This document shows positions 22,072 through 43,532 of a DNA stretch of 64,000 nucleotides, in pieces. Positions within the stretch are counted from its first letter, which is position 1; each line of letters starts with the position of its first letter. Source of the stretch: Streptomyces sp. 3214.6 (GTDB lineage Bacteria; Actinomycetota; Actinomycetes; Streptomycetales; Streptomycetaceae). Below the pieces are notes generated by a model. It was given only the letters and a program-made list of their open reading frames with translations, was not told the DNA's origin and did not search any database. A program made the translations under genes and the position numbers. The stretch is taken from positions 3,534,001 through 3,598,000 of the forward strand of contig NZ_LT670819.1 of NCBI RefSeq assembly GCF_900129855.1, written 5' to 3'.

Positions 22072-22164
22072 CCGATCCCGCGACCGCGCCCCGCGCTCTC
22101 GCTTGATTCACGTCCCCCGCACGAGCGGGAAGACCTCCTCGAACTCCGAGAACGGAACTCCGAC

Positions 22165-23553
22165 ATGACCACCTTCCACGTCGCGGTCGACCACCTGGAT
22201 CCCGACACCCACGACATCACCACCACCTATCTGGGTACCGTCGACCAGGCGCACGTCGACCGGGTACGCGCCATCGCCGCCCTTCCGGGCTCCGAGCGCC
22301 ATGTCAACGAAGACCCCCGGCACGAGGGCGCCTTCATGGTCCTGCGCGACGACGGCGACCTGGACGTCTACGAGCCCACCAGCCCGGCCGAGCCCACCAG
22401 CCCGGCCGAACACGCAGCACCCGAGCGCGACGCGCTGCCGGAGGCCCACGACGAGACCGGCGACCGGCTCGCAGGGTTCCTGAGCAGCGACAGCCGCACC
22501 CTGGTCGGGGCGCCGCACGGCGCCTCGGGCCCGGCGTACATCGACGGCGTGACCCGGTTCGGCGACCAGCGCATCGGAGGAGCGATGGACACCCCGCTCG
22601 AGCCGCCGCGGGCCGTGTGGCACACCACCGAGTCCCCGGCCGGCGCCGGCTACTTCACCTCCGTGGCCGCCTACCTGATCCGTGCCGGGGTGGAACCGCA
22701 GGTGATCTACTGCCCTGTCACCGACCGCCTGGGCCAGTTCGGGCCCCTGAACCTGTCCTCGAGAGCGCTGAAGAACGACGGCACGCAGCGCACGAACCGA
22801 ACCGGCAAGGTCTGCATCCAGATCGAGGTGCTGGGACGTGCCGCCTCTCCGTGGACCAAGGGTTTCGACCCGAAGGCGAAGCCGAACTTCCAGAGGCTGC
22901 TCACCGCGATACGCGCGCACGGCATCCCGGACGTGTGGCCCGTCGGGGCCCCGCCGGCCACCGCGGCCGCCGCGACGGAGCGTCCCAGAGTCACCTGGGA
23001 GAACAAGGGCGGCCACTACGGGCACTCCCAGATCCCCGGCCAGGACCACTGGGACCCCGGGGCCATCGACACCGAGATCGTGCCCGGCAGGCCCCGCCCC
23101 GCCGACGGGGGAACCGCTCCGGACGCCGGTTCCGGTACCTACACCGTGAAGGCGGGCGACACCCTGACATCCATCGCGGCCGCACACGGGACCACGGTGG
23201 CTGTTCTCCTGTCCCTCAACGGCATCAAGGACGCCGACGAGATCTCCGTGGGGCAGAAACTGCGACTGCCGGCGGCCGGCCCGGCGAAGCCGCCGGCACC
23301 GCGGTACGAGCCGTTTCCCGGGACGGCGTTCTTCCGTGCCGGCCACCGCAGCCCCCTCGTCACCGCCCTCGGAAAGCGCCTGGTGGAGCTCGGCTTCGGC
23401 AAGCACTACACCTCCGGTCCCGGACCCGAATGGACGGAGGCGGACCGGCTCAACGTCGCTGACTTCCAGCGCTCCCGGCCCGAACTGGCGGGCGACGCGG
23501 ACGGGATCCCGGGCCCCAAGACGTGGGCCGCGCTGAACATCCCGAAGCTCTGA
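22165..23553 (+). CDS. Amidase-like, LysM and peptidoglycan-binding protein without signal peptide (endolysin-like)
   Basis: 462 aa. An N-terminal region of about 75 residues is followed by an acidic EPTSPAEPTSPAE linker. An amidase-2/PGRP-like domain at about 130-310 has VWHTTES, CIQIEVLG and GHSQIPGQDHWDPG. A LysM domain at about 328-372 reads TYTVKAGDTLTSIAAAHGTT. A C-terminal peptidoglycan-binding domain shows the actinobacterial pattern GPGPEWTEADRLNVADFQRS to PGPKTWAALNI. There is no secretion signal, as in phage endolysins, so it would need lysis or a dedicated exporter. It lies 93 bp after the 590-aa gene on the same strand and probably completes the cassette. Confidence 0.85.
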   Translation: MTTFHVAVDHLDPDTHDITTTYLGTVDQAHVDRVRAIAALPGSERHVNEDPRHEGAFMVLRDDGDLDVYEPTSPAEPTSPAEHAAPERDALPEAHDETGDRLAGFLSSDSRTLVGAPHGASGPAYIDGVTRFGDQRIGGAMDTPLEPPRAVWHTTESPAGAGYFTSVAAYLIRAGVEPQVIYCPVTDRLGQFGPLNLSSRALKNDGTQRTNRTGKVCIQIEVLGRAASPWTKGFDPKAKPNFQRLLTAIRAHGIPDVWPVGAPPATAAAATERPRVTWENKGGHYGHSQIPGQDHWDPGAIDTEIVPGRPRPADGGTAPDAGSGTYTVKAGDTLTSIAAAHGTTVAVLLSLNGIKDADEISVGQKLRLPAAGPAKPPAPRYEPFPGTAFFRAGHRSPLVTALGKRLVELGFGKHYTSGPGPEWTEADRLNVADFQRSRPELAGDADGIPGPKTWAALNIPKL

Positions 23554-23560
23554 AGCACGC

Positions 23561-23704
23561 TCAGCCCGAGACACCCACGATGCCCGCCGCGGCACCGGGC
23601 GCGACGCTCAGGCTGACGCCGTTGACGGACAGGTCGTCGACGTGCTCCTGGCGGTGGCGGCCGACGTGGCGCGGCGGCCGGCGTGGCATCTCGTGGTTCG
23701 TCAT
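23561..23704 (-). CDS. Possible 47-aa peptide (uncertain)
   Basis: A minus-strand reading frame from ATG 23704 gives MTNHEMPRRPPRHVGRHRQE, then HVDDLSVNGVSLSVAPGAAA and GIVGVSG. A basic leader-like half and a hydrophobic Gly/Val/Ser-rich tail are suggestive of a small secreted or precursor peptide. No good ribosome site is seen, and no modification enzyme is adjacent. It is opposite to the seven-gene cassette and convergent with its end. It may simply be non-coding. Confidence 0.25.
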   Translation of the reverse strand: MTNHEMPRRPPRHVGRHRQEHVDDLSVNGVSLSVAPGAAAGIVGVSG

Positions 23705-23737
23705 GGGCGCAGCGCCGGGGGGCCGGGTCTGTGGACA

Positions 23738-24213
23738 GCGCTCGCGCAGTACGTCGCCCGCCGTCTGGTCCGCTTCGCGAACGAGGACATCGGCATGGCC
23801 GACCCGCACGCCGTCCAGCAGACCCTCGCCGCCTGGGACGTGTACGAGCGGCTCGGCACCCCCGAGGGCGAGTTGGCGATCGCCCAGGCCGTCGTCTACC
23901 TCGCCACCGCCCCCAAGTCCACCGCCGTCTACCACGGCTTCAACACCGCACACCGATCCGCCCGCCAGACCGGCTCGCTCATGCCGCCCGCCCACATCCT
24001 CAACGCCCCGACCCGGCTGATGAAGAACCTCGGCTACAGCAAGGACTACCAATACGACCCGGACACGGCCGCAGGCTTCTCCGGCGCCAACTACTTCCCC
24101 GACGGCATGGACCGCGAGACGTACTCCAGCCCACCCGCAACGGCTACGAAGCCCAGATCAGCGAACGCCTGCGCCACTGGGCCGCTCTGCGTGACCGCCG
24201 ACAACGCGGCTGA
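23738..24213 (+). pseudogene. rarA (replication-associated recombination ATPase) C-terminal remnant, frameshifted
   Basis: From ARRLVRFANEDIGMADPHA through GELAIAQAVVYLATAPKSTA to SLMPPAHILNAPTRLMKNLG and ANYFPDGMDRETY, the translation matches the C-terminal half of RarA/MgsA. At about 24125 the frame breaks. The expected YYSPTRNGYEAQISERLRHW continues in the +1-shifted frame and ends at 24213, consistent with loss of one C in the CCC run. The AAA ATPase half is missing altogether. This is a dead fragment, more like the proteobacterial-type RarA than the usual actinobacterial one, left by an old rearrangement or transfer. Confidence 0.8.
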
Positions 24214-24255
24214 CGGGCCGACAGTAGGGCGAGTTGTCCGTCAAGTGCACTCACC

Positions 24256-24289
24256 GAAGGGGTCGGACTCGACAGAGTCCGACCCCTTC
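24256..24289. terminator. Strong hairpin terminator
   Basis: A perfect 15-bp inverted repeat (arms 24256-24270 and 24275-24289, loop GACA) follows the rarA remnant and closes the left-hand cassette before the kinase gene, which is convergent. It could be bidirectional. No gene was recognised in the remaining 24290-24721, where only short frames and a small ACGT hairpin at about 24307-24319 occur. Confidence 0.8.
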
Positions 24290-24721
24290 TGACCTGCATG
24301 TTTCCCACGTCATCAACGTGGTGTTATTTATCCGCTCAGACGTTGAAGCGGAACGTCGACGACTCATTAGTCAGCTGCAAGAACGCCGCATCCTGGCAGC
24401 GGATCCAGCGAGGATCCAGCAATCGTCCTGGCAAGGGCCACCGTGATCGCATGCGCCCATCGGGCCGGTCACGGCGCACGGTCCGAGCCCATCTGCGTCG
24501 CGCTGACACGACCTCCCACGTCTCGCTTTCCACGACGCGCGTGGCCGTGAGGCTGTGCGCGCGAAGGGGCATGAGCGCCGGCCCAAGGCCGAATCGATCA
24601 AGCTGGAGTCGGTTCGAGCCGGTCGACGCCCTTGGCCAAGTGCGCGTCCGGAATCCCCGGCCAAAGGCAGAGAGGGCCTGACAGTCGGCGGGTCTGCTCT
24701 GCCCCGGACTCGGGCGGCTGC

Positions 24722-26323
24722 TCAGATTTCGCCCTTCTGGTAGCCCTTCAGCCGATCAATCTGCTTATCGAGGTTGCGTACCTGGGTTGAGTTGGCCCCG
24801 ACAGAGACGACCAGGAGGCGGCGAACCATTTCGAGCTCCACCCGCGCTTCACCATGGTGTCCAGAGGCAGCGAGCATCTGAGCGATGAGGTAGCGCGACT
24901 CGCGGATTTGGTCCGCGGTGTCGTTGCTCGCCGAGACAACAGCGTTCTGTACGTAGAAGCGGAGTTGGGGCAGGGCTTTGCCTGGGTTTCCGATCTCGGC
25001 GTAAGCATGTCCGGCGTGGTACGAACAGTCGAGGACGAACGAGTCGGTCGCAGGCAGATGCTTGCGGTAGTCGCGGCCGACGACTTCGAAGAGCGCCGCG
25101 GCACGGGTGTACTCGCCAGCGTAGAAATGTGCGGCAGCGAGGAAGTGACGCAGGCGCAGGTCCAGGAACGGGTCGTGAGCGGCGCGGGCGACACCGTCCT
25201 CGAGAAGCCGGATGGCCTCAGAGGGGTGATCGTTGTCCAGCAGTACCCGGACGTTGGCCTGCAGTTCTTCGGCCTCAGCGTCGGTGAGCTTTCCTCGATT
25301 GGTGGGCTGCTCCCGCTGCTTGGCCGGGGTCAGGAGGGGGCGGCGGAAGGGGCGCGTCGGGTCTCGGCTCTCGTCGCCGCCCGTCTTCGTATCGTTCGGA
25401 GCTGATGCCAGGGGGAGAAGGACCTCGTAGACCTCCTCTGCGGAGGGCCGCTCCTGCGGGTCCTTCGCGAGCATCGACGACAGCAGTGAGTCAAGAGCGA
25501 TCGGGATTTCTGCTCGTCGGCCCTGGACCGAGGGGGCGGGCGTCTGCAGGTGGTGGGCCCGCAGGGGCATGCTGTCGGTCCCATGGAACGGCACGTCGCC
25601 AGTCAGCAGTTCGCAGAGCAGACAGCCGAGTGAGTAGATGTCCGAGGCAAAGGTCACCACCTTGCCGAGGCACTGTTCCGGAGACATATAGGGCGGGGTT
25701 CCGACCGTCTTGTCAATCTGGGTCAGCCGCGGCAGCGCGCCCGCACCGCGCAGGATGGCGATGCCGAAATCGAGGACCTTCACTAGGCCGCCGTTGACGA
25801 GCATCACGTTGGACGGCTTGATGTCTCGGTGGACGATGTCGACCCGGTGCACGTCGGCCAGCACCGCCGCGATCTGCGCCGCGATCGACGCCGCCCACGC
25901 CACGCTCGGCGCCGCGTCGCCGTAATCCGTACGGTCGAGCACCGCCTCCAGCGTCGAGCCACGCAGAAGCTGCATGACGAGCCACAGCTGCGAACTGCCG
26001 TCGGGGGCGGTCTCGACGCCCGTGTCGTAGACCGCCGGAATCCCGGGATGCTCCAACTGCGCGGAAGTACGGATCTCGCGCAGGAACCGCTTGCGGTCGC
26101 GCTCCAGACCGTCGAGGATCTCCACCGCCTCCGGGCTGTCCGGTGCGGCCGGGATCGCTGCCGTCGACGAGGGGCGAAGCACCTTGATCGCGACGCGTCG
26201 GTCCAGACGCTCGTCGTAACCGTGGAAGACCTCGCTCATGCCGCCGCGGCCGATCGAACCGTCCACCCGGTAGCGTCCTGCGAGCAGCGGTCTCTCGGCC
26301 GACTGTTCCGTACTGTCCGTCAC
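24722..26323 (-). CDS. Soluble Ser/Thr protein kinase with C-terminal TPR-like region, linked to the type I R-M operon
   Basis: 533 aa. A Hanks-type kinase domain occupies about 16-285: glycine loop GRGGMS 25-30, catalytic K47 in VAIKVLR, HRD at 165-167, DFG at 185-187, and GTPPYMSPEQ. All catalytic residues are intact. There is no transmembrane helix and no PASTA domain, unlike typical PknB. Residues about 350-530 are helical with repeated Ala/Tyr/Leu patterns like TPRs. Translation starts at GTG 26323. It lies 72 bp downstream of hsdR on the same strand and is probably the last gene of that operon. The position suggests it modulates or executes a defence response; substrate unknown. Confidence 0.88.
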   Translation of the reverse strand: MTDSTEQSAERPLLAGRYRVDGSIGRGGMSEVFHGYDERLDRRVAIKVLRPSSTAAIPAAPDSPEAVEILDGLERDRKRFLREIRTSAQLEHPGIPAVYDTGVETAPDGSSQLWLVMQLLRGSTLEAVLDRTDYGDAAPSVAWAASIAAQIAAVLADVHRVDIVHRDIKPSNVMLVNGGLVKVLDFGIAILRGAGALPRLTQIDKTVGTPPYMSPEQCLGKVVTFASDIYSLGCLLCELLTGDVPFHGTDSMPLRAHHLQTPAPSVQGRRAEIPIALDSLLSSMLAKDPQERPSAEEVYEVLLPLASAPNDTKTGGDESRDPTRPFRRPLLTPAKQREQPTNRGKLTDAEAEELQANVRVLLDNDHPSEAIRLLEDGVARAAHDPFLDLRLRHFLAAAHFYAGEYTRAAALFEVVGRDYRKHLPATDSFVLDCSYHAGHAYAEIGNPGKALPQLRFYVQNAVVSASNDTADQIRESRYLIAQMLAASGHHGEARVELEMVRRLLVVSVGANSTQVRNLDKQIDRLKGYQKGEI

Positions 26324-26395
26324 GCCCCACCACTCCTGCCCAGAGATCTCGGAGCCTACGGCTCCGCCCGCCCCACCGCCTGTCGCTTACAGCGA

Positions 26396-29300
26396 TTACT
26401 GCTCGATCGCCTGGCCTCCGATTTCCCGGCGCATCTCACTGCGCAGCTTTGCCAGGGCTTCGTCCCGTGCCGGTTCGGTGATGATCCGGTAGGCGCGCTT
26501 GCGGGCCGCTTCCTTGATCGCCTTCTGGAATTCGTTGTTGTCGAAGTACAGCTTCATGAAGTCGGTGTTGCGCTCGGCGTTCTCCGCGACGATGTCATCG
26601 AGACGATCGTCGGCGACCTGCCCGAACCGGGCCTCGTCGTTCATGAGCGCGATCTGCTGCATCGAGGTGTCTTCAACCAGGCCGACGACCTGCTGGTAGA
26701 CGAGGATCTGGTCGGAGGTGCTCAAGTCGAGCCCGAACCGTTCGTTGAGTTCCTCGATAACCTCGGAGAGCGGCTTCACCTCCGGCTCCCGGTAGCCTCC
26801 GCCGTCGGCGGCGTGCCCGCGGACGTCGCGGTCTCCGACGGCGGAGAGCGACACATTGTGCCGTCCGGTGAACTCCAACCGGAAGTGGCTCAGGTCGGCG
26901 TCCCCTATGTCGACCGAGGCGGAAGGGCGTCCGGGCAGGCGGAGAAGCAGGATCCTGCCGTACTGGTAGAGACGTTCCAGATCCCGGTCCCCCCAGTCGA
27001 CGATCTGCGCGATGAGACTGTAGGCGCGCACGTAGTCCTGCAGCGCACCCCGGAACCCCTCGCGTTCGTCGTCCGTCTCCAGGGCGTCGAAGCGGTCCAG
27101 GGCCGGCTTCAGGTACTCGTGGAGTTCGGCGTGGAGCTTACGCTCGGCGGCGTCCGGCATCCTGCCGGGACCGGCTGCGGACAGGACGCGGATGAACGCC
27201 TCCATCTCCGATGCGGCCAGGAGGCCGTACCCCATCACCTCGTGCTGCTTGGTGTAGAGGAGGTTCGGGTCGCTCGGCTCGGTGATGGTCGTCTCGAACC
27301 AGTCCTCGAAGGCGGTCTGGATGTCGGCGGCCTCGTTGACGAAGTCGAGAATGTGTACGTCGTCCTGCGACTTGAGCGGGTGGATGCGGTTGAGCCGCGA
27401 CAGCGTCTGCACGGCCGCGACGCCGGTCAACTGCTTGTCGACGTACATCGCGCACAGCAGCGGCTGGTCGAAGCCGGTCTGGTACTTCTCCGCGACAACC
27501 AGAATGCGGTACTCCTCCTGAGCGCGCGCGACCGCCTGCGGATCGTCGGCCTTGGTGTAGCCGAACCTGTCCGGCAGCTTGCTCTCAGGGAAGCCGTTGA
27601 GCTGGGCCTCGGTGAACTCCAGGCCGGCGTCGTCCTTGAGCTGCCCGGAGAACGCGACGAGAGCGCCGCAGTCCTTATAGCCGCGCAGGGTGACGTACGC
27701 CCGGATCGCCTGGTAGAGGTCCAGCGCATGCTGACGGCTGCTCGTGACGACCATGGCCTTGGCCCGGCCGCCGAGCCGACCGGTGATGTTCTCCCGGAAG
27801 TCATCGACGATCAGCCGCGCCTTCTGCTCCAGGGACTTGGGGTGCTGCTCGGCGTAGCGGACGAGTTTGGCTTTGGCCTTCTTCTCGTCGACTTCGGGGT
27901 TGGAGATGGCCGACTCGGCCTGGTCGACAGCGGCGTTACGCAGCCGCCACTTGGTGTTGTACGTGATGTAGTTGGCGAGCACGTCGAGGATGTAGCCCTC
28001 GTCGATCGCCTGTCGCATCGAGTAGATGTGGAAGGGCACGTACATGCCCTGCTCGCCGGTGCGCTGGTTCACCCGGTCCGGGTCGAAGGTGCCGAACAGC
28101 TTCAGGGTGGGCGACTTCGGGGTGGCGGTGAAGGCGAAGTAGGACAGGTTTGGCTGCTTGCCGCGGACCCGTGTCATGTACTCCACGGGGTCCTCGTTCT
28201 CCTCGCGAGCCGGCACATTCGAACCGAGCGCCTGCTTGATCTTGATCGCCGATTCGCTGCCCTGTGAGGAGTGCGCCTCGTCGATGATGACCGCGTAGCG
28301 CTTGCCGGACAGACCCATGTCGGCGATCTTCTTCAGCACGAACGGGTACATCTGCAGCGTGCTGATGACGATCTTCGAGGTGGAGTCGTCCAGGGCGCCG
28401 GCGAGCTGGGTCGAGTCCTCGTCGATCTTCTTGACGACGCCGGGGGTGTGGTCGAACTGGAAGATGGTCTTCTGGAGTTGCCGGTCGAGGACCACCCGGT
28501 CCGTGATCACTATGATCTTGTTGAAGACCGGCTGGTTGGCCGTGTCGAAGAGCGTGGAGAGGCGGTGCGCCAGCCACGCGATCGTGTTCGACTTGCCGGA
28601 GCCGGCCGAGTGCTGGACCAAGTAGTTGTGCCCGGCCCCATGGTCCCGAGCGTGGGTGACCATCTTCTGTACGGCGTCCCACTGGTGGTAGCGCGGGAAG
28701 ATGCGGGGCGAGGTGTGTGGGTTTTCCTTCGCGCCCTTCCTGTCCGGGGCCTTGATGTGGATGAAACGGTGCAGGATCTCCAGCCAGTTGTCGCGCTGCC
28801 AGATCTGCTCCCACAGGTAGGCGACGCTGTACGAGCCGGGGGCGGCGGCCGGGTTTCCGGCCCCGCCGGATACACCGGGGCCGTTGGAGCCGAGGTTGAA
28901 CGGCAGGAACTGCGTATCGGCACCGCGCAGCCGGGTGGTGATGAAGGCCCGATCGGGGTCCACGGCGAAGTGAACCAGGGCCCGCTTGGCGAAGAACACA
29001 TCGTTCGGGTCGCGGTCACGGCGGTACTGCGCGACAGCGTGGTCGGCGTTCTGGTTGGTGTTCGGGTTCTTCAACTCGACGGTGGCGACCGGCAGGCCGT
29101 TGACGAAGAGCGCCATGTCGAGGGAGCGGCGGGGGTGGCGAGTGCTGTAGTGCAGCTGGCGCGCGACGGTCAGGACGTTCGCGTTGTACTCGGCGAGCGC
29201 GTCCACGGCCAGGGTGTGGCCGGGGCGGAAGTACACCAAGTCGATCTGCACGCCGCGGTCGCGCACACCCTGGCGCAGGACGTCCAGCACGCCACGCGCG

Positions 29301-29545
29301 TCGATCTCGGCGGCGACGCGCTCTGCGAACTGGCGTTGGGCGGTGTTCTGGTCGCCGCCGTAGAACCCGACAAGCCGAGTCCAGGCCTTTATCTGCGTCG
29401 CACCGATGAATCGGTACATCTCTCCGGTGTCGATACCGAGTTCGACGTTGAACGTGCCTTGGGCCTTGGACCAGCCGTGCGCGAGCAATTCGGCCTCGAC
29501 ATTGGCCTCGAAGGCATCTTCGGAGCGCGCTCCACGACTGCTCAT
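26396..29545 (-). CDS. hsdR: Type I restriction endonuclease subunit R
   Basis: 1049 aa, normal for HsdR. An N-terminal PD-(D/E)xK nuclease contains VATVELKNPNTNQNADHA at about 150-165. The SF2 helicase/translocase has Walker A SAGSGKSNT at about 312-320, DEAH in VIIDEAHSSQGS near 420 and further motor motifs (FAFTATPK, EKYQTGFDQP, TLSRLNRIHP). The C-terminus is the helical HsdR_C region that docks to the methylase. It would translocate and cleave unmethylated DNA together with HsdM and HsdS. Its start overlaps the hsdS stop (29542-29545, ATGA). Confidence 0.95.
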   Translation of the reverse strand: MSSRGARSEDAFEANVEAELLAHGWSKAQGTFNVELGIDTGEMYRFIGATQIKAWTRLVGFYGGDQNTAQRQFAERVAAEIDARGVLDVLRQGVRDRGVQIDLVYFRPGHTLAVDALAEYNANVLTVARQLHYSTRHPRRSLDMALFVNGLPVATVELKNPNTNQNADHAVAQYRRDRDPNDVFFAKRALVHFAVDPDRAFITTRLRGADTQFLPFNLGSNGPGVSGGAGNPAAAPGSYSVAYLWEQIWQRDNWLEILHRFIHIKAPDRKGAKENPHTSPRIFPRYHQWDAVQKMVTHARDHGAGHNYLVQHSAGSGKSNTIAWLAHRLSTLFDTANQPVFNKIIVITDRVVLDRQLQKTIFQFDHTPGVVKKIDEDSTQLAGALDDSTSKIVISTLQMYPFVLKKIADMGLSGKRYAVIIDEAHSSQGSESAIKIKQALGSNVPAREENEDPVEYMTRVRGKQPNLSYFAFTATPKSPTLKLFGTFDPDRVNQRTGEQGMYVPFHIYSMRQAIDEGYILDVLANYITYNTKWRLRNAAVDQAESAISNPEVDEKKAKAKLVRYAEQHPKSLEQKARLIVDDFRENITGRLGGRAKAMVVTSSRQHALDLYQAIRAYVTLRGYKDCGALVAFSGQLKDDAGLEFTEAQLNGFPESKLPDRFGYTKADDPQAVARAQEEYRILVVAEKYQTGFDQPLLCAMYVDKQLTGVAAVQTLSRLNRIHPLKSQDDVHILDFVNEAADIQTAFEDWFETTITEPSDPNLLYTKQHEVMGYGLLAASEMEAFIRVLSAAGPGRMPDAAERKLHAELHEYLKPALDRFDALETDDEREGFRGALQDYVRAYSLIAQIVDWGDRDLERLYQYGRILLLRLPGRPSASVDIGDADLSHFRLEFTGRHNVSLSAVGDRDVRGHAADGGGYREPEVKPLSEVIEELNERFGLDLSTSDQILVYQQVVGLVEDTSMQQIALMNDEARFGQVADDRLDDIVAENAERNTDFMKLYFDNNEFQKAIKEAARKRAYRIITEPARDEALAKLRSEMRREIGGQAIEQ

Positions 29546-30765
29546 GCGATGCCTCCGGAGATGGTTGAGCGGCGGGCGGTCGTGACGTCGAACTGGCCTG
29601 TGACGGCGGCGGTAATGAGGGCCTGGCGGCGTTCTGCGAGTAGGGAAATCTGCCTGTCTAGATGAGAATTCAGAAGATTGAGATCATCGGCGATCTCATC
29701 GAGTTTCGCTGCGCGACGCTCCTGCTCTCGGATATCAATTGCCGGGAAGTCCAACTGTTTCATGCTGCCGACATTAAAGTGCGCCTGAATGCTCCCGACC
29801 GAGTGTTCAGAGATCTTGTCCCGCGCGTAGAAGGAATTCAAATAGTGAGTGAGGAACGAGGAGTCCGTTGAGGATCCTGGGCGGATGATCAACAAGTCGA
29901 TGCAGTTGGATCCGTCAAGTTCTTCAGGAACGATAGCTGCCGCCCCGGCCTGTCCAGTGCGAACCACCACAACATCGCCAGCTGACAGGCGGGACTTCTT
30001 ATTCTCGCCATGGCCGGCGTGACTAATTTGCACCATGTTGGTGGTGTCGATGCGACCTGGGCTAACATTCAGGCCGCGCAACGCAGGTACGCCGCCCTCG
30101 TCCACGTACCAGTTCGCCGGTGTGATCACGATTCCCACGCTGACTGACTGGACTACATACTTCAGCGGAAGCATGGGTGGGAGCGAATCCAATCCCAGGA
30201 TCTGCTCGGTCATGCGTTCACGTTTCAGTACAAGTAGGTCGCGCATTCCTTGTCTCGCAGCCGCGAGGCCATCGATCCGGTCCGTCTCGGCGTCGAGGAA
30301 GTCGGCGATCCGGCGTTGCTCGTCAAGAGGCGGGCGAGTTACCTCAACTGAAGCAAGTGCGTCGGTCGACAATTCCATGAATGTTGACCCGGTGCCGCGA
30401 GCGATCAGCTTTTCACGTAGCGCAAGCAGATGGTATCGATAGTAGCGTGCATCGACGGGGATGGTTGCAACGAGGCCTCGACATCCCTGATTAAAAGCCA
30501 TCCTTTTGTTGATCTGTGCTACATATCCGATAGGTGCGCGAGTCGAGAGAATTAGTGACCCTTCGGGAATCATTCTCGATCCTGTCAGAACGCCTTCTTC
30601 CGTGAGATTTCGCTGCGTTGAAGCGAGGGTCCCACCGTCTGCGCCCCCGATATCTAGGGGTGTCGCCCAAGGGACGTCGCCGTTCCAATATTTTTCATCG
30701 CTTTTTGGAGTTCCACCATTCGCGAAGCGGAAAATTCGACGAAGCGGGATTTCTTGCCAGCTCAC
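29542..30765 (-). CDS. hsdS: Type I restriction-modification specificity subunit S
   Basis: 407 aa with the two-TRD layout: TRD1 at about 1-150 (IPLRRIFRFANGGTPKSDEK), a conserved helical spacer (PPLDEQRRIADFLDAETDRI), TRD2 at about 200-340 and a second helical spacer (EQERRAAKLDEIADDL) at the end. The TRDs set the bipartite recognition sequence, which cannot be read from sequence alone. Base composition is visibly lower in GC than its neighbours, as is common for exchanged TRDs. It overlaps both hsdM and hsdR by 4 bp. Confidence 0.93.
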   Translation of the reverse strand: MSWQEIPLRRIFRFANGGTPKSDEKYWNGDVPWATPLDIGGADGGTLASTQRNLTEEGVLTGSRMIPEGSLILSTRAPIGYVAQINKRMAFNQGCRGLVATIPVDARYYRYHLLALREKLIARGTGSTFMELSTDALASVEVTRPPLDEQRRIADFLDAETDRIDGLAAARQGMRDLLVLKRERMTEQILGLDSLPPMLPLKYVVQSVSVGIVITPANWYVDEGGVPALRGLNVSPGRIDTTNMVQISHAGHGENKKSRLSAGDVVVVRTGQAGAAAIVPEELDGSNCIDLLIIRPGSSTDSSFLTHYLNSFYARDKISEHSVGSIQAHFNVGSMKQLDFPAIDIREQERRAAKLDEIADDLNLLNSHLDRQISLLAERRQALITAAVTGQFDVTTARRSTISGGIA

Positions 30766-32744
30766 GCCGTCACCTCGCCCAGGAGCTTCTGGATCTGCGC
30801 CTCAAGCTCGCGCAGCTCTGCGTCGATTTCCGCCAGTGGCCTTGGCGGTGTGTACACGTAGAAGTGCCGGGTGAAGGGGATCTCGTAGCCGACCTTCGTC
30901 TTCTCCTCGTCGATCCAGGCGTCCGGGACGTGTGGGGTGACTTCGCGGGCGAAATAGGCCTTGATGTCCTCATCGAGAGGGATGTTCTCGTAGTCGCGCA
31001 AGTCCGGGTCTGGGAGGATCGTTTCGATGCCGGCCTTCTTGGTCTTCTGGACCTCGCCCTCGGGGTCGGAGACGGAAACCGCGCCCCAGACGCCCTTGAG
31101 GAGCGCCGCCGTGCCGGGCCACTGTGCGCCGTCGGCTGCGATGGCAGCGTGCATGGCGTCCCGGGCCTCCTGCTTTGTCCACCACACCGTGCCGACCAGA
31201 CCCCGCAGCGCCTCGACCATCGCCTCGCGACCGTCCCACTTGGCCAGGGCCTTCGCGTTCTCCAGTGCGGCGAGGGTGTCCTCGGTGATCTCGAAGCGCA
31301 GCTTGAGGGGGCGCTCGACGGTGATGCGGTGGTAACCGAAGTCGCGAGTCTTGAAGACCTTGACCTTGGCCTGGTCCGGGTGGTTCTCGCCTACCGCACC
31401 GTTGAGCGCCTCGACGTACAGCTCGGTGATGTGCTTGATCTGTTCGTCGTTGATCTGCTTGCGCTTGTCGCCGAAGGACTTGCGCATTTTCTCCCACTGA
31501 TCGCGGGCGTCGACCAAGGCCACCTTGCCGCGCAGCTTCTCAGACTTGCGGTTGGACAGGATCCAGAAGTACGTGGAGATGCCGGTGTTGTAGAAGAGCT
31601 GGTCCGGGAGGGCGACGATTCCTTCCAGCCAGTCGTTCTCCAGGATCCACTGCCGGATCTTTGACTCGCCGGACTCGGCAGCGCCGGTGAAGAGTGGCGA
31701 GCCGTTGAAGACGATGCCCAGGCGGGTCCCCTTGCCCTCGACGGGTTCCATCTTCGAGAGCAGGTGCTGGAGGAAGAGGAACGAGCCGTCGTTGATGCGA
31801 GGTGTGCCCGCGCCGAAGCGGCCGGCGTGGCCGATCTCAGCTTCGGCCTCGACCTCGTCCTTGACCTTCTTCCACTCCACGCCGAACGGCGGGTTGGCCA
31901 GCATGTAGTCGAACTTCTGGTCCGGGTAGCCGTCGTCGCTGAAGGAGTTCCCGAAGTAGATGCGGCCGGGCTGGTTGCGCATGAGCATGTCGGCCTGGCA
32001 GATGGCCCAGGACTCCGCGTTGAGCTCCTGCCCGAAGAGGTAGACCTTGGCCTTCGGGTTGATCGACTTGATATGGTCCTCGGCCGCGGTGAGCATGCCG
32101 CCGGTGCCGCAGGCCGGGTCGAGGATGTTGATGACCTGGCCCTCGCCGGCGATGGTCTCGGCGTCCGGGGCGATGAGCAGGTTGACCATCAGCTTGATGA
32201 CTTCGCGCGGGGTGAAGTGCTCACCGGCGGTCTCGTTGGAGTCTTCGGCGAACTTGCGGATCAGGTGCTCGAAGACGTAGCCCATGTCGTGGTTGGAGAG
32301 CTTGTCGAGGTCGCGCATCGTGTTGAACTTGCCGACGACCTTGTACAGGATTTTCGCGCCCGCGAGCCTGGTGATCTCGTTGTCCAGGTCGAAGCGGGAC
32401 AGGATCTTCCGGACGTTGGGGGAGAAGCCGTTGATGTAGTCGCGCAGGTTCTTCGCGACGTTCGGGGCGTCCGAGGCGATCGAAGCGAAGTCCTGATCGG
32501 AGGTGTTGTAGAAGGGAAGCTTGGCTGCGAGCTCCAGCAGCCGGTCCTTGTTCTGAACCTCCAACGACGCGTTGCGGGCGCGCACCGCGTCGCGGGTCGG
32601 CGCCATCACCGCGTCGAGGCGACGCAGCAGCGTGAACGGCAGGATCACCTGCCCGTACTCATGGCGCTTGTAGTCGCCGCGCAGCAAGTCGGCGACCGAC
32701 CAGATGTCGTTCGCCATCTTGGTGTGCGTGGGTGCTGAGGTCAC
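30762..32744 (-). CDS. hsdM: Type I restriction-modification DNA adenine methyltransferase subunit M
   Basis: 660 aa. An N-terminal HsdM_N helical domain (ANDIWSVADLLRGDYKRHEY) precedes the N6-adenine methylase fold with motif I DPACGTGGML at about 206-215 and motif IV NPPFG at about 282-286, both intact. It adds the protective methyl mark directed by HsdS and is required for restriction. It is somewhat longer than the about 500-aa type IA proteins because of a C-terminal extension. Its start lies within the end of the upstream HTH-methylase-like gene (4-bp overlap). Confidence 0.95.
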   Translation of the reverse strand: MTSAPTHTKMANDIWSVADLLRGDYKRHEYGQVILPFTLLRRLDAVMAPTRDAVRARNASLEVQNKDRLLELAAKLPFYNTSDQDFASIASDAPNVAKNLRDYINGFSPNVRKILSRFDLDNEITRLAGAKILYKVVGKFNTMRDLDKLSNHDMGYVFEHLIRKFAEDSNETAGEHFTPREVIKLMVNLLIAPDAETIAGEGQVINILDPACGTGGMLTAAEDHIKSINPKAKVYLFGQELNAESWAICQADMLMRNQPGRIYFGNSFSDDGYPDQKFDYMLANPPFGVEWKKVKDEVEAEAEIGHAGRFGAGTPRINDGSFLFLQHLLSKMEPVEGKGTRLGIVFNGSPLFTGAAESGESKIRQWILENDWLEGIVALPDQLFYNTGISTYFWILSNRKSEKLRGKVALVDARDQWEKMRKSFGDKRKQINDEQIKHITELYVEALNGAVGENHPDQAKVKVFKTRDFGYHRITVERPLKLRFEITEDTLAALENAKALAKWDGREAMVEALRGLVGTVWWTKQEARDAMHAAIAADGAQWPGTAALLKGVWGAVSVSDPEGEVQKTKKAGIETILPDPDLRDYENIPLDEDIKAYFAREVTPHVPDAWIDEEKTKVGYEIPFTRHFYVYTPPRPLAEIDAELRELEAQIQKLLGEVTA

Positions 32745-34513
32745 AGATCTCTCGTCTCGTCGTCAGCCGGCTCGGCTTCATCAGTGTGCTGCGAGGTGGT
32801 GAACTCCGGTGCCAGAACACCGGTGGTCAGTCCGTGGATGGTCTGCTCGATGACGTGCGTGCTCGTTTTCGCGAGCGTGGTGAGTACGTCTTCGAGCTGC
32901 TGGAGGTGGCGAAAGGCATCTCCGTAACGGCGTTGGTCAGAGAGCGACATGCGGGGAACGCGGCAACGGCGCAGGTCCTCGCGGCTGAGTACGCCGAGGG
33001 TGTTGGATACCGGCAGCGCGTTGGCGTCGATGCGCAGGAACGTGGCGAGGAAATGTGCGTCCAGCCGGGTGCCGTCGATCTCGACGACCTGTGCGACGCC
33101 GTTGTCGTCCTCGGCGCCGCCGGAAGCGACGACCGGCGGCCGACCGAACGTCCGAAGCAGCAGGTCGCCTGCGCGCGGGGTGGTCTCCCGGGAACGGATT
33201 TTCAGTGCGCCCGCGCGCTCCAGCTCGCCGAAGGTCACGTACACGGGGTTCGCCGACTTCGCTGGCGTGGCGAAGCGCGGAAGGCGTTGGCCGATGCGCG
33301 TGTACATGGCCTGCAGCCGGTCGGTGACCTGGAGGAAGTCCTGAGGGCTCGCCTCGGCATGCGAGTTGATGTGCCGGGAGGGCAGAAGGTTGGCGTCGCC
33401 GTTGAGGAGTTCTCGGCGCGGAACGGCGCGGAATATCGTCGAGTGGGCATCGGTGAAGAGGCGTTGCCAGGCGGCGAACTCCTGAGGTACGTCGGCCGCA
33501 TCGCCCAGTCCTGTGAGGTCGACCATGCGCACCGACTCCGTGGCGGCAGCGTCATAGGGGCGTTGCAGTACCCAGAGACAGAGCTCGCTGTCAGGTGCCG
33601 ACCCCATTCCCTTCGGCAGCGCGATCACATCGCGTAGAGCGCCGGTGCGTACCAGCTCGGCGCGGATGTGTTCTCCGGAGGGCTGGACGCACGTGCGTGG
33701 TGTCACTGCGACCACAGCCAGGCCGCGGGGCCGTAGATGGGCGTAGCAGTGCTGAACCCAGGCCAGCTCGCTGTCACGCGGAGCAGGGACGCCGAATTCC
33801 CAGCGTGGATCAGTGCCCAGCTCGTCGGCCGGCCACCGGGGCAGGTCGGGGGGAGGCTCGCAGACCACCGCCGCCGCTTTGCCTAGGTAGGCGTCGAGCT
33901 GATTGTCCAGGAAGGAGTCGCCGGTGTGGATCTCGTACGGTGCCCCGTGGGCGTTGCTGCGCAGATTGTGGGCGGCGGCAGAGGCGTCCGACGCCTCGAC
34001 TTCCTGGCCGACGAGCTTGACGGCATCCCCGAATCGATCCGCGACGGCCAGCAGCAACGTGGCCTTCGAACAAGCTGGGTCGAGTACCGCGGGTTCGTCC
34101 GAGGAACCGGCTTCGATCGGGCGTGCCGCGGCTGTCGTGCGTGGCAGCAACGCCGCCATCGCCCTGGCCAGCAGTTGTCCGGAGCCCAGGGCCGCGATTC
34201 CCTGCTCCCCTTCCTCCTCCGGCAGGCGGTCGCCGTGCAGAGCGGAGTGCGGCGCTTCCTGGTCCACACGATGAGTACCGGTGTCAGTGCGGCCGGCCGT
34301 CGATAGCTGATCGCCCTTACCGGTGTCCTTCAGCCATGCCTCGACCTCGGCCCGGGAGAACGTCGGGCGGCGCTCGTCACCGCCCACCGGCTGCGGGAAC
34401 GCGGGGTATCGACGGCGCCAGTTGGACACGGCGGCACGTCCGACGCCGGCCAGCCTGGCGATCGCGGCGGCCGTCATCTCCTCGTGCTCGGCTGGACTCA
34501 TGACGGTGACCAT
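32741..34513 (-). CDS. HTH - degenerate HsdM-like - TRD fusion protein, leader gene of the type I R-M operon
   Basis: 590 aa from ATG 34513; a further in-frame start at 34552 is possible but has no good ribosome site. Residues about 10-60 are an AlpA/MerR-like HTH (AAIARLAGVGRAAVSNWRRR). A methylase-like domain follows, but motif I reads LDPACSKAT instead of DPACGSGT and motif IV reads CEPPPDLP instead of NPPF/NPPY. Residues about 420-560 look like an HsdS target-recognition domain ending in a helical spacer. The protein is therefore probably catalytically weak or dead but may still bind DNA. Similar HTH-methylase proteins are common orphans in Streptomyces; here one leads a complete type I operon. 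A regulatory or accessory specificity role is inferred. Confidence 0.8.
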   Translation of the reverse strand: MVTVMSPAEHEEMTAAAIARLAGVGRAAVSNWRRRYPAFPQPVGGDERRPTFSRAEVEAWLKDTGKGDQLSTAGRTDTGTHRVDQEAPHSALHGDRLPEEEGEQGIAALGSGQLLARAMAALLPRTTAAARPIEAGSSDEPAVLDPACSKATLLLAVADRFGDAVKLVGQEVEASDASAAAHNLRSNAHGAPYEIHTGDSFLDNQLDAYLGKAAAVVCEPPPDLPRWPADELGTDPRWEFGVPAPRDSELAWVQHCYAHLRPRGLAVVAVTPRTCVQPSGEHIRAELVRTGALRDVIALPKGMGSAPDSELCLWVLQRPYDAAATESVRMVDLTGLGDAADVPQEFAAWQRLFTDAHSTIFRAVPRRELLNGDANLLPSRHINSHAEASPQDFLQVTDRLQAMYTRIGQRLPRFATPAKSANPVYVTFGELERAGALKIRSRETTPRAGDLLLRTFGRPPVVASGGAEDDNGVAQVVEIDGTRLDAHFLATFLRIDANALPVSNTLGVLSREDLRRCRVPRMSLSDQRRYGDAFRHLQQLEDVLTTLAKTSTHVIEQTIHGLTTGVLAPEFTTSQHTDEAEPADDETRDL

Positions 34514-34819
34514 ATCGGTCAGATCTCCCCTCAGGCAAGCCCTTGTGAACACGCCCGGATTGCGTCAACGAGATCGCGTGAACATCGATGCCTAATGTCA
34601 ACATGGTTGCGCCGCATCTCATTCGCCGCTACGTTTCTTCGCGGCGAGAACTCTTGGTTCGCCTGCTGCACCTTGCGCACGCCATCAATGTCCCGCGTCA
34701 CCCACGGCCCAGTGCGGCCATACGCGCCAGCCCCATCACAGGAACCGACGCTCCACACGAGGCACCACGTGTCACAGACCCCGCGCGCGGAATGCGCCCC
34801 TCACTCCAGGGAGACTTCC
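34514..34819. promoter_or_regulatory. Divergent promoter region of the R-M operon and the TIGR04141 gene
   Basis: A 306-bp region between divergent starts with no gene. It is less GC-rich than the surroundings. A TTGACA hexamer lies on the minus strand at 34601-34596, a candidate -35 element for the R-M operon, near a GAACATCGATG self-complementary patch at 34579-34590. No clear -10 was assigned. Confidence 0.4.
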
Positions 34820-36553
34820 TTGCCCCGTACCACCGCCTCAAGGCGCCGCCTCTACCGGCTCCTCGACGTCGACCCCACCTCGGCTGCCATGCTCGATGCC
34901 CTCGATCTTGAGCAGCTCAGCGCCTATCACGCGGACGTCCACGACCCGAGCGAGTTCCTGGGCGTGCCCGCGCTTCGGGTGACGTTCGGTGTCGAGAAGG
35001 ACGAGGCCGCCTGGTGCGGAGAGCTCGTCCAGCTCACTGATGAGGATGTCCGTGAGCGGGAGCGGCGCACCGGTGCGCTGCTGATGATCGCTGTTGACTC
35101 CGCCGTGTACGCCGTCGGTTACGACCAGGGGTTTCGGCTGCTCCCCACGCATCTGAAGGACCAGAGCTTCGGCCTCTCGGTCGCAATCCGCACCATCGAC
35201 CCGCAGCACGTCCGGGACTTCACTGCGAATCAGCTCGGCGCTGCCCGCACCGACATCTCCATCGTGCCCGGCGGCACTTCCGTGCCCACCCTCGGCCTGC
35301 GCGCGCACTCCCGGATCGTCCGCAGCCTCGGCGGTTACCTGGACAGCAGCGACCTGACCGGCGCCGCCGAGTCCAGCGGGCGGCTGGGCCGCCCGATGAC
35401 GGTGGAGGGCGGGGTCGGGTTGCACCTCAAGCTCGGCACCACGCCTGACGCCCTCATCGCCGACATTCGCACCATCGCCGCCGTCCTCGAGAACACCGAC
35501 CCTCATCCCGACCTGGCATTCGTCGAGCACATCAAGCCGGTCACCGCCCCGGCTTTGCGCAAGACGCTCGACGAGCAGCTCGACACGATCCTGGGACAGC
35601 CGGCCATCGACTCGATCTGCTCCGCCGTCCCCGCCGAGCACATCGACGACTACACCCGCGCAGCCGCCTACACGATCAAGATCGGAGACTGCGCACCCTT
35701 CTCCGCGGACACCTTCGACCTCGATTACTTCCTGACCCGCGCACGGATCATTAAGCGCGGTCAGCGCATCGAGGCCTTGCGTCGCGGCACCGTGGCCCTG
35801 TACGGCCGCGAGCGTGCATCGGCCGTGGATCACCTCGCGACGACCAGTGCGCTGAAGTGGATCGAGGCCCATGTCTCCTTCGGATCGCGCAAGTTCTGCT
35901 TCCTGGACGGTGCCTGGTACGAGTTCGGAACGACGTACCTGCGTGCTCTGCGTGAGACCGTGGCCCCTCTGTTTCCGGCCAACTCGTCGCTGCGCCTGCC
36001 CGCCTGGCAGTACTCCCTCGAGGTGAACAAGAAGGGGAAGACCGTTCGTCGGCCGATCAGGGAAGCCACCTACAACCAGCAGGCCGCAGAGAACCGTCCT
36101 GGCTGGGTCTGCCTCGACCAGAAGAACGTCAACAACCCCCTCAAGACCACGAACGCGGTCGAGATCTGCGACCTCCTCATGCCCGACGGCACTCTCGTCC
36201 TGGTGAAGAAGGCCCATGACTCCGCCCCCTTGAGCCACCTGTGCTACCAGGCCCACGTCGCAGTCGAGCTTCTCCAGCAGAACCCCTCCGTGCGCGCCCA
36301 GTTCGCCCGGCAGGTGCACATCCAGAGCGACGGCAACCGCACCCTGCCCGAGGACTTCACCCCGCACCGCGTCGTCTTCGCGATCCTCCTCAAGGCGGGC
36401 GAGAAGCTGACCCCCGACACCCTCTTCCCGTTCTCCCTGATCACGCTGGCCCAGACCGCACAGGCACTCAATGCCCGTGGCGTCCAGGTCGAGGTCGTCG
36501 GCATCGAGCCCACCCTGGCCCCCGCAGCCAATGGGCTCAGCGAGGCCGCCTGA
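34820..36553 (+). CDS. TIGR04141-family (DUF6119) sporadically distributed protein
   Basis: 577 aa from TTG 34820, chosen because CAGGGAGA lies 5 nt upstream. The longer open frame back to 34484 overlaps the divergent gene's leader and is unlikely. The sequence (RRRLYRLLDVDPT at the start, ALLMIAVDSAVYAVGYDQGFRL, NQLGAARTDISIVPGGT, RPGWVCLDQKNVNN, CDLLMPDGTLVLVKKAHDSA, LSHLCYQAHVAVELL) matches my memory of the TIGR04141/DUF6119 family. That family is patchily distributed and often close to restriction-modification genes. Its biochemical function is not known to me. Being divergent from the R-M operon suggests joint defence function or shared control. Confidence 0.8.
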   Translation: MPRTTASRRRLYRLLDVDPTSAAMLDALDLEQLSAYHADVHDPSEFLGVPALRVTFGVEKDEAAWCGELVQLTDEDVRERERRTGALLMIAVDSAVYAVGYDQGFRLLPTHLKDQSFGLSVAIRTIDPQHVRDFTANQLGAARTDISIVPGGTSVPTLGLRAHSRIVRSLGGYLDSSDLTGAAESSGRLGRPMTVEGGVGLHLKLGTTPDALIADIRTIAAVLENTDPHPDLAFVEHIKPVTAPALRKTLDEQLDTILGQPAIDSICSAVPAEHIDDYTRAAAYTIKIGDCAPFSADTFDLDYFLTRARIIKRGQRIEALRRGTVALYGRERASAVDHLATTSALKWIEAHVSFGSRKFCFLDGAWYEFGTTYLRALRETVAPLFPANSSLRLPAWQYSLEVNKKGKTVRRPIREATYNQQAAENRPGWVCLDQKNVNNPLKTTNAVEICDLLMPDGTLVLVKKAHDSAPLSHLCYQAHVAVELLQQNPSVRAQFARQVHIQSDGNRTLPEDFTPHRVVFAILLKAGEKLTPDTLFPFSLITLAQTAQALNARGVQVEVVGIEPTLAPAANGLSEAA

Positions 36554-37019
36554 AGAAGCGGCCGGATCACAGGGAATCCCCGTGACCGAGTAGGACACCG
36601 CCCGCTGAGGCAGCCACGACGACGGTCCCCTCACGGAACTTGCCGAGCTCCCAGCCGCCACGCATCGCACGCAACTCCCGCAGCGCCTCGACACCCACCA
36701 CGCCGACCGCTTCACCAGCCCTGCGGCCCACGGGGCCAGTGGGTCAACATCCTGCCCCGTTATGTTTTCCGCGGTCCTGCAAGAGGGCCGCTGGCCTCCG
36801 GGCCCGGCATGACTTTTGCCCCCTGTCGAACGGATGACCTGGGGGGGGTGGTGTCACCGGGCCTGGGAGGTACCGTCGGAGACGCTGATCAGAGGTCCGG
36901 CCACCGCCCGGTCCGGCGCAATGCCGGACATCTCGCGGGCGGCAGGTCTGCATAACGTGGATGCGCGCGTACGACACCACTGCCAAGGCCAGCACGTTCA
37001 ACTCCCCTGGAAGGGCGCG
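36554..37019 (+). ncRNA. Upstream non-coding part of the IS110 element, possible bridge-RNA locus
   Basis: 466 bp between the DUF6119 gene and the IS110 transposase start. IS110 elements are known to encode a structured bridge RNA in the non-coding end next to the transposase, usually upstream. Here the stretch 36780-37019 has several hairpin-forming runs (for example GTCCGGCGCAATGCCGGAC at about 36911-36929) and a G8 run at about 36841. The exact RNA and element ends are not resolved. The part before about 36740 may be flanking DNA or remnants. Confidence 0.35.
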
Positions 37020-39281: not shown

Positions 39282-39695
39282 ATGAAGCTGCAGATCACCG
39301 TCGGTTCACAAGGCGACGACATGGCGGCCCACGATCTGTACCACTGGCTCCGGCAGGATCGTGAACTCCGGCGCCACGCACAGGTCGAGCTGGCACTGTC
39401 TGTCGGCGCTTCTGGTCGCATGAGCGCGGGAGAGACCATCAATATGTTCGTCAGCAACGGTCTTGCCGCTGCGAGCCTGTTGGTGAACATCGTGGTCGCC
39501 TGGCGAACAGCCCGTCCATCGTCACCCGGGCCGGTCGTCATCGGCCGCGACGGAATGACCGTGACAGTCCACGACACATCAGAGGAAACCCTGCGTCGCG
39601 TCGCGACCCTGTTGGCATCCACACCTCCCGAAGTAGCGCCGGGGACCGTCGGCACGAGCCAGGCGTCAACGCAGTCCGTCTCCGAGGATCGGTGA
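39282..39695 (+). CDS. EACC1-family effector-associated protein
   Basis: 137 aa behind a GGGGGAGA ribosome site. The pattern KLQITVGSQGDDMAAHDLYH, WLRQDRELRR, ALSVGASGRMSAGETIN and a hydrophobic helix NGLAAASLLVNIVVAWRTAR (about 48-67) fit the 'effector-associated constant component 1' family described by Aravind and colleagues from NTP-dependent conflict systems. These are small proteins encoded next to an effector such as a caspase-like or trypsin-like peptidase. Its stop overlaps the caspase start (TGATG), so the two are coupled. It probably tethers or senses for the effector; the exact role is not established. Confidence 0.82.
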   Translation: MKLQITVGSQGDDMAAHDLYHWLRQDRELRRHAQVELALSVGASGRMSAGETINMFVSNGLAAASLLVNIVVAWRTARPSSPGPVVIGRDGMTVTVHDTSEETLRRVATLLASTPPEVAPGTVGTSQASTQSVSEDR

Positions 39696-43119: not shown

Positions 43120-43160
43120 GGGTTCGGGCCCTCCTTGCGTCGGGCGGTTGGCGCGGGGCG

Positions 43161-43532
43161 TCAGCCGTAGTGCTCGTCGAGGTAGCGGGTGATGTCGCGG
43201 GCGCGGAACCGCAGCAGGCGGCCGACCTTCTGCGGCGGGATGCCCCACAGGCGGTAGTTGTTCCTGAGGGTGGTCGGGCTCACCCGCAGCCATGCCGCAA
43301 CCTCTTCCACGGTCAGCAATCGATCACTTCCGCCGGGGGCGGAACGCCCGCGATCCGTGGCGACACAGGAGCATCTACCTTTCCCGTTCCGGGAGTTGGC
43401 AAGGGTCGGCGGGACGTCGGCTGCCGGTCCGGTGGTGGACCATGGACGCTCCCTGGTCCGGGCCTTGTCAAGCGTCGGCACGGCGTCGCTCGGGCCGGCA
43501 TCGATGGGCTGACGGTTACGCGGCACGGTCAT
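43161..43532 (-). CDS. xis: Excisionase / helix-turn-helix DNA-binding protein
   Basis: 123 aa from ATG 43532 behind GGAGG. The first about 65 residues are low-complexity. The C-terminal half is a MerR/HTH_17 excisionase fold: LLTVEEVAAWLRVSPTTLRN followed by VGRLLRFRARDITRYLDEHY. It lies 41 bp upstream of the integrase on the same strand, the standard xis-int arrangement. It would direct excision and possibly regulate its own promoter. Confidence 0.88.
   Translation of the reverse strand: MTVPRNRQPIDAGPSDAVPTLDKARTRERPWSTTGPAADVPPTLANSRNGKGRCSCVATDRGRSAPGGSDRLLTVEEVAAWLRVSPTTLRNNYRLWGIPPQKVGRLLRFRARDITRYLDEHYG

Follow-up and report, generated by a model that had tools for sequence, protein, structure and literature searches.

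A type I restriction-modification operon of Streptomyces that recurs with a methyltransferase-like leader gene and a Ser/Thr kinase gene

What keeps type I restriction-modification (R-M) systems from cutting the DNA of their own host is understood only in part, and this holds most of all when they enter a cell that lacks the modification. According to sections of a review (PMC3874165), ClpXP explains the control of types IA and IB but not that of EcoR124I, which is insensitive to ClpXP yet shows alleviation, and the way in which unmodified host DNA is discriminated from invading DNA is called unresolved there. Between them, this review and a second one (PMC12707154) also describe the long delay in EcoKI restriction as not clearly determined; the second names possible phosphorylation of the restriction subunit among the controls of EcoKI. 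In M.SsoII the N-terminal region regulates transcription, as stated in part of PMC3978073. Here we describe a stretch of 64,000 nucleotides from Streptomyces sp. 3214.6 (NZ_LT670819.1, positions 3,534,001 to 3,598,000; hereafter the window) in which the type I genes hsdM, hsdS and hsdR share one operon with a leader gene, LEAD, and a Ser/Thr kinase gene, KIN. The original prediction, made from the window alone, had proposed an extended, kinase-regulated type I system. When the five-gene order was sought in other genomes, it was found to recur in many genera with sharp boundaries.

Organisation and recurrence of the operon

The operon runs from 34513 to 24722 on the minus strand, with all five genes co-oriented. 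Overlaps of 4, 4 and 4 bp join LEAD, hsdM, hsdS and hsdR, and a gap of 72 bp separates hsdR from KIN, so that the gene order and spacing originally proposed were borne out by the coordinates. The genes are as follows.

34513-32741, minus strand: LEAD, a leader protein with a helix-turn-helix (HTH) at about residues 10-64, a degenerate N6-methyltransferase fold at about 142-332, and an HsdS-like half with a target recognition domain and a long helix at about 365-564
32744-30762, minus strand: hsdM, with Pfam HsdM_N and N6_Mtase and the intact motifs DPACGTGG and NPPF
30765-29542, minus strand: hsdS, with two Methylase_S stretches (Pfam), i.e. two target recognition domains
29545-26396, minus strand: hsdR, with Pfam HSDR_N, SWI2_SNF2 and T1R_D3, nuclease motif VELKN, Walker motif AGSGKS and DEAH
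26323-24722, minus strand: KIN, a kinase with Pfam Pkinase at residues 18-299 and TPR-like C-terminal helices at about 348-529

Between them the three hsd genes carry every domain that defines a type I system, with motifs intact, namely the N6-adenine motifs of HsdM, an HsdS with two target recognition domains, and the nuclease and SF2 motor motifs of HsdR. The match of hsdM to PADLOC model PDLC03029 scored 855 bits; that of the window's HsdR to the NCBIfam hsdR subfamily TIGR00348 scored 194 bits, under the cut-off of 284.6. KIN has the catalytic residues that had been predicted (VAIK, HRDIKPSN and DFG), and the Lys, the HRD Asp and the DFG Asp were kept in all 56 aligned R-M-linked kinases as well as in 13 of 13 kinases from other LEAD loci. 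By these residues KIN is predicted to be an active Hanks-type kinase, and it is of the general PknB type. Its C-terminus is predicted to form a TPR-like helical array. The kinase is probably soluble, as the original prediction had it, because its strongest hydrophobic 19-mer (residue 173, mean 1.9) is part of the kinase domain.

Named genomes scanned with the HsdR of the window yielded 34 loci, 20 of them close (L201-L220, 74-97% identity) and 14 distant (L221-L234, 35-41%). The close relatives came from Nonomuraea, Sinosporangium, Sphaerisporangium, Acrocarpospora, Actinomadura, Frankia, Nocardia, Pseudonocardia, a Geodermatophilaceae bacterium, Streptomyces and some metagenome-assembled genomes (MAGs). 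Among the 18 close loci whose sequence extends past hsdR, 17 had KIN directly behind it on the same strand (gap -4 to 80 bp), the exception being Frankia tisae (L213); L214 and L220 stop at a contig edge and stand outside this count. LEAD preceded hsdM in 18 of 18 loci with room for it, overlapping by 4 bp in 16, and an HsdS match lay between hsdM and hsdR in 18 of 18. The counts for KIN (17/18) and LEAD (18/18) include L205 and L217, which repeat L072 and L071, as well as L218 and L220, which stem from one MAG. Neither LEAD nor KIN was detected in the 14 distant loci, some of which end early. Rare association of the kinase and the leader with hsdMSR, which would have spoken against the original prediction, was therefore not what the close relatives displayed.

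Of the 33 Pkinase matches across the 9.4-Mb genome of the window, 31, KIN among them, exceed the cut-off. Chance neighbourhood of such a common kinase was ruled out by the identical placement of KIN in 17 of 18 close relatives, and the arrangement is far beyond chance.

A set of 17 non-redundant window-type loci was compiled, omitting L205, L217, L213 (a true lack of KIN) and L214, L218 and L220 (contig ends). When the called genes were clustered, the only families present in at least three of these loci were KIN, hsdR and the methylase-fold genes LEAD and hsdM (17/17), DUF6119 (12/17) and hsdS (4/17, a low count because the gene caller often missed hsdS). As no other gene family occurred in three or more loci, the window-type cassette has sharp edges. 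HsdR identities of 85-88% between Streptomyces and other families suggest that it moves as a block. Across the class, HsdR matches were obtained in 50 of 394 genomes and 29 of 137 genera; in plasmids, 747 records matched at E 1e-100 or better, all with less than 60% identity.

Within Streptomyces, 392 genomes were searched with HsdR, and 78 had a match at E 1e-60 or better. Eighty stretches of up to 20 kb around hsdR were read with genes called by a simple codon-usage script, a partial HsdR match in G269 being left out. Together with the window, 67 loci fell into the HsdR clade of the window (clade A) and 14 into a distant clade B (37-40% identity). KIN was located downstream of hsdR in 60 of the 67 clade A loci and on the same strand in 60 of 60; clade B had a kinase in one of 14 loci only, of 800 aa and 5 kb distant (L144). 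Three of the seven clade A loci without KIN (L089, L096, L108) end early. LEAD was present in 62 of 67 clade A loci, 60 of them from gene tables (some copies cut or weak, e.g. in L081) plus L087 and L133, the latter with LEAD several genes upstream of hsdM. In the remaining five (L076, L077, L079, L080, L129) it was absent as far as the sequence was read, and all five retained KIN, 40-72 bp after hsdR in four and 2.5 kb off in L129.

The contents of the clade A loci varied in several respects. Before hsdM in L076 and L079, which retain KIN, an AAA ATPase and a subtilase-family gene occupied the place of LEAD (upstream stretches L239 and L241; Pfam on the L239 copies). In a large Streptomyces group (L081-L135 and L149, those with KIN), XRE/DUF5753 and HATPase genes, at times with DUF397, lay between hsdR and KIN in 32 of 49 loci; UvrD-like, AIPR and EcsC-like genes varied nearby, and a DndB-like gene was often found divergently upstream. 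An AAA_21 ATPase and DUF4276 pair was inserted directly before hsdR in L073, L111, L114, L119 and L130.

Co-divergence was determined from pairwise distances among 59 loci with long LEAD, HsdM, HsdR and KIN. Distances correlated at r=0.98 for KIN and HsdR and at 0.96 for LEAD and KIN. Within 16 window-type loci the correlations ranged from 0.74 (LEAD-HsdR, the lowest of all pairs and groups) to 0.91 (KIN-HsdR), and the large Streptomyces group (39 loci) gave values between 0.91 and 0.96. Each of these values was unmatched in 500 permutations.

The leader protein, its promoter and stand-alone operons

The genome of the window has one LEAD only. An AlphaFold2 model of the protein (mean pLDDT 80.9, pTM 0.58) comprised the HTH, the methyltransferase fold and the HsdS-like half, and its best PDB matches in Foldseek were PacII M1M2S, a Vibrio type I methyltransferase, a Streptococcus HsdM and EcoR124I subunits. 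Motif I of LEAD reads DPACSKAT and motif IV CEPPPD, as against DPACGTGG and NPPF in HsdM. With EPPP in motif IV and DPACSKAT in motif I, the window's LEAD should not methylate.

Motifs were compared among LEAD copies longer than 400 aa, 57 from clade loci in which LEAD had been found and 20 others. In the 57 R-M-linked copies motif IV was NPPY or NPPF in 46, mostly together with an intact-looking motif I, another sequence in nine and a gap in two shortened copies. In the lineage of the window the motif could be located in 16 of 18 named copies, and in all 16 its first position was occupied by a residue other than N, D or S; the degenerate state is consequently stable across genera. LEAD of the window thus belongs to a degenerate branch of long standing, within a family some of whose members look like intact enzymes. 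The designation pseudo-methyltransferase in the original prediction holds for this lineage; for the family as a whole a universal pseudo-enzyme was ruled out by the 46 NPPY/NPPF copies.

Twenty further LEAD loci were read beyond the HsdR-based set. LEAD was followed by a TPR-like kinase of the KIN clade without hsdMSR in 12 of them, nine from Streptomyces and three from another family of the same order (L151, L153, L155, L158-L160, L162-L164, L167, L168 and L170). In 11 of these 12 stand-alone operons gene calling placed a small protein (about 190-260 aa) between LEAD and KIN, the copy of L151 with a strong hydrophobic stretch. Motif IV of the stand-alone LEADs was HPPF in nine and QPPS/T in three. 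Two of the 20 loci had hsdMSR (L165, L169), and five were without KIN, hsdMSR or genes of the kind found in L157. L157 (2-9399) differed again: there a LEAD homologue and a kinase that does not belong to the KIN clade precede genes for a DrmD-like helicase and for a methylase resembling type IIG/DrmMI.

A kinase tree was built from 56 of the 60 R-M-linked kinases (those longer than 400 aa), the 12 from stand-alone operons and, as background, 26 of 29 other kinases of the genome. A single edge grouped all 68 R-M-linked and stand-alone kinases plus one background kinase with a support of 0.984; a tighter edge grouped the 68 alone with a support of 0.398.

Upstream of LEAD the following features were noted.

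34569-34545 and 34602-34578, minus strand: putative operator, GTTGAC-N13-GTTCAC twice with a period of 33 bp
34538-34509, minus strand: promoter-like sequence, -35 TTGCCT at 34538-34533 and -10 TATGGT at 34514-34509 with an 18-bp spacer, followed by an ATG at 34501 (leaderless-like)

The LEAD start at 34513 falls inside the -10-like TATGGT; the ATG at 34501 is the more probable start, as it better fits a recurring promoter layout. In 13 aligned upstream regions TTG and a TAnGGT-like hexamer recurred at the promoter position, and in relatives a palindrome, TGTGAACA-N10-TGTTCACA, directly preceded this promoter. The window's site reads as a diverged form of that palindrome. GTTGAC-N13-GTTCAC, a pattern written after the site had been seen, had two exact matches in the window, and with one mismatch allowed one of 100 shuffles reached two; the same layout was present in L210.

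The palindrome was scored in 80 upstream regions with a recognised HTH and at least 200 bases, with a simple base shuffle as control. A score of at least 13/16 was reached by 8 of the 13 window-type regions and by 7 of the 12 from stand-alone operons. No region of the two other R-M groups (3 and 44 regions) attained it, nor did any of 1600 base shuffles; among the remaining eight regions one did. Since the motif was drawn from window-type regions, whose own score is partly circular, the stand-alone group serves as an independent check. In the large Streptomyces group the site, TGAAAGCACTGTCAAACACATTGACG, is another one though laid out similarly, and the HTH also differs slightly; 24 sites of the TGAAAGCACTGTCAAACACATTGACG type beside LEAD are descriptive, the model having been built from those sites. 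Twelve genomes were picked for a stand-alone-type LEAD, three of which (G004, G011, G034) had not been used in motif discovery. Allowing up to two mismatches, each of the 12 had TGTGAACNNNGTCAACNNNGTTCAC at a single place, and a reversed control matched nowhere. These sites lay about 105-170 bp before the HTH match of LEAD, two of them matching on both strands. That each genome has just one such site, and has it at the LEAD promoter in every case, fits autoregulation, and LEAD probably controls its own promoter.

Possible roles of the kinase and the leader

The best reading of the locus, held with moderate confidence, is that of a horizontally spread type I system under transcriptional control by LEAD and tuned by its own kinase. 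LEAD, whose architecture resembles an HsdM fused to half an HsdS with an HTH in front, would bind the recurring operator at the operon promoter and set the level of hsdMSR and the kinase. HsdM and HsdS, given their intact motifs, would methylate host sites and HsdR would cut unmodified DNA, as is standard for type I systems. KIN, probably co-transcribed, would dock by its TPR-like domain, most likely on HsdR or HsdM, or else on LEAD. An R-M subunit is favoured as partner because the five loci that lack LEAD have all retained KIN, four of them directly behind hsdR. Phosphorylation of the docked partner would hold restriction back or release it, in a direction that cannot be read from the sequence, and occasions for it would be the entry of the cassette into an unmodified host or a chromosome with unmodified sites. 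Restriction may thus be switched by phosphorylation. Phosphorylation of the HsdR of EcoKI is said to have been described by Cajthamlova in 2007. Because here the kinase gene sits in the operon, control of HsdR by phosphorylation becomes a simple genetic and biochemical question.

More tentatively, and on balance doubtfully, LEAD and KIN could form a portable phosphosignalling module that has been joined to a type I system, in which the dead methyltransferase, with its target-recognition half, reads the modification state of DNA or AdoMet without methylating and drives the TPR kinase to phosphorylate HsdR. The pair would then couple the sensing of modification to a kinase switch that gates restriction. 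Nine Streptomyces genomes and three others of the order have the LEAD-KIN operon but no hsdMSR with it, which marks a candidate signalling module.

Several observations weigh against a type I system controlled by LEAD and KIN. KIN was absent within about 9.7 kb in L093, L106, L117 and L128 (true lacks) and within 9 kb in L213 of F. tisae, so it is not always needed; as some loci are without KIN or LEAD, the system can evidently do without either. For 41 of the 49 loci in the large Streptomyces group the distance between hsdR and KIN exceeded 900 bp, and this distance, together with the intervening XRE or HATPase genes, often places KIN outside the hsdR transcription unit. The palindrome scored only 11/16 in the window's own region, stayed under 13/16 in 5 of 13 window-type regions and was lacking at that score in all 44 of the large Streptomyces group. 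Correlated distances reflect shared descent of a co-inherited block, which is possible without physical contact. Finally, since an operon of LEAD and a KIN-clade kinase exists without hsdMSR, the pair may serve a role unrelated to restriction.

Among the alternatives, a rather unlikely one makes KIN a second-line abortive-infection effector. Infection or an anti-restriction protein would be sensed by LEAD or by the R-M complex, KIN would be released or activated and would phosphorylate host proteins, and growth would stop. A soluble kinase with intact catalytic residues and a likely interaction domain would suit such a task, and defence-like accessory genes (AIPR, UvrD-like, AAA_21/DUF4276) vary around the large Streptomyces group. 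Growth-stopping action of a kinase is described for Stk2 and proposed for PglW, and the type I system EcoprrI holds a sequestered lethal effector, PrrC, which acts by another chemistry, according to sections of PMC3874165. However, the kinase co-diverges with the R-M genes and lies in a tight operon in window-type loci, and kinases of its clade occur in an operon without hsdMSR, which would be odd for a dedicated killer.

That same operon, found in 12 of the 20 further LEAD loci, speaks for the view, which we consider unlikely, that LEAD and KIN are an independent regulatory pair and that hsdMSR came to sit inside their operon and shares no more than the promoter. The clustering of R-M-linked with stand-alone kinases is in line with it. 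Yet simple hitchhiking does not predict the retention of KIN in 17 of 18 relatives across genera, nor its persistence, right after hsdR in four of five cases, in loci where LEAD was absent as far as read; moreover, the middle protein of the stand-alone operon is not recurrent in window-type cassettes. That LEAD is a second working methyltransferase which sets an extra protective mark and tolerates degenerate motifs is highly improbable. Most R-M-linked LEADs have NPPY/NPPF, mostly with an intact-looking motif I; against it, in the lineage of the window motif IV stably lacks N, D or S at its first position across genera.

Genomic surroundings and comparison with described systems

The stretch from about 24 to 43 kb has a lower GC content than most of the window. 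Divergent from the operon and adjacent to LEAD lies one further gene, which in view of its recurrence in window-type loci is likely a sixth, accessory member.

34484-36553 (longest open reading frame), plus strand, divergent: DUF6119/TIGR04141 gene, with its start at 34595 or 34889 by gene calling

An IS110-type transposase gene (36816-38237) is located between it and a gene for a caspase-family protein of the EACC1-associated type (39692-41899), the latter in the same stretch of lower GC. A phage-type integrase gene, together with an open reading frame of 52 codons at 43161-43319, occupies 41935-43319. On the other side, 15942-23553 encodes a large DUF6603 protein, then a 590-aa protein without a Pfam match, then a LysM protein. 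An integrated element with clean att sites was rejected, as the window contains no tRNA and no exact repeats of at least 13 bases were shared between 23400-24900 and 42900-46000. Rfam gave no match at gathering thresholds.

No paper about the five-gene order was found in the open-licence literature, judged by titles and abstract openings, which does not establish its absence from print; nor did one on the stand-alone LEAD-KIN operon turn up in the literature searched. The described systems resemble the operon to different degrees. MADS is a set of eight genes, mad1-mad8. It shares with the operon a methylase, an HsdS-like subunit and a Ser/Thr kinase, and the mad1, mad2, mad5 and mad6 models match operon parts. 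The matches were, however, under the NCBIfam cut-offs for MAD6 (131/460), MAD2 (53/720) and MAD5 (31/400), and the window has a classical HsdR. No other mad name appeared in the NCBIfam lists or among the PADLOC matches listed, for which the operon and some neighbours were scanned. With the mad1-mad8 set incomplete among the proteins scanned and these scores under the cut-offs, membership in MADS was rejected.

Pgl/BREX type 2 likewise links a kinase gene to methylase-based defence. As originally stated, neither PglX nor PglZ was found in the operon proteins by Pfam, NCBIfam or among the PADLOC matches listed, the search for PglX being limited to those proteins; in the whole genome no PglZ exceeded the Pfam cut-off, one match elsewhere reaching 21.7 bits against a cut-off of 25. 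The likeness to PglW noted originally turned out to be weak, with 27 bits for KIN against a cut-off of 990 and a kinase domain of general PknB type. With no PglZ over the cut-off in the genome and no PglW among the operon proteins, the locus was not assigned to this type. Likeness to DISARM was seen in L157, with its LEAD homologue and different kinase before the helicase and methylase genes; the operon itself was not assigned to DISARM (drmA, drmB and drmC with a drm methylase), as no drm name occurred among the PADLOC matches listed for its proteins and the neighbours scanned. PADLOC models of PD-T4-6 matched the kinase domain of KIN with up to 274 bits. This match stops at about the end of the kinase domain, and the C-terminal 214 residues of KIN alone gave no PADLOC match.

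LEAD may resemble self-regulating methyltransferases of the M.SsoII/M.EcoRII type, in which, according to part of PMC3978073, a methyltransferase carries an N-terminal region that controls R-M expression. The model places an HTH on a methyltransferase fold, a dedicated site was present in the 12 stand-alone genomes and the window has a diverged variant of such a site. M.SsoII, as given in the same part of that source, is a cytosine-5 enzyme, whereas LEAD is of the N6 kind, HsdM/HsdS-like and degenerate in the window. Of the extended, kinase-regulated type I system originally proposed, the extension is borne out by a gene set that recurs across genera and is unlike Pgl/BREX; its regulation by the kinase stays a proposal. 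Closest in the hsd genes are EcoKI and EcoR124I, which have hsdM, hsdS and hsdR with their defining domains and motifs in common with the window, and to which the cassette adds two co-conserved genes, for an HTH/pseudo-methyltransferase/half-HsdS protein and a TPR-like kinase.

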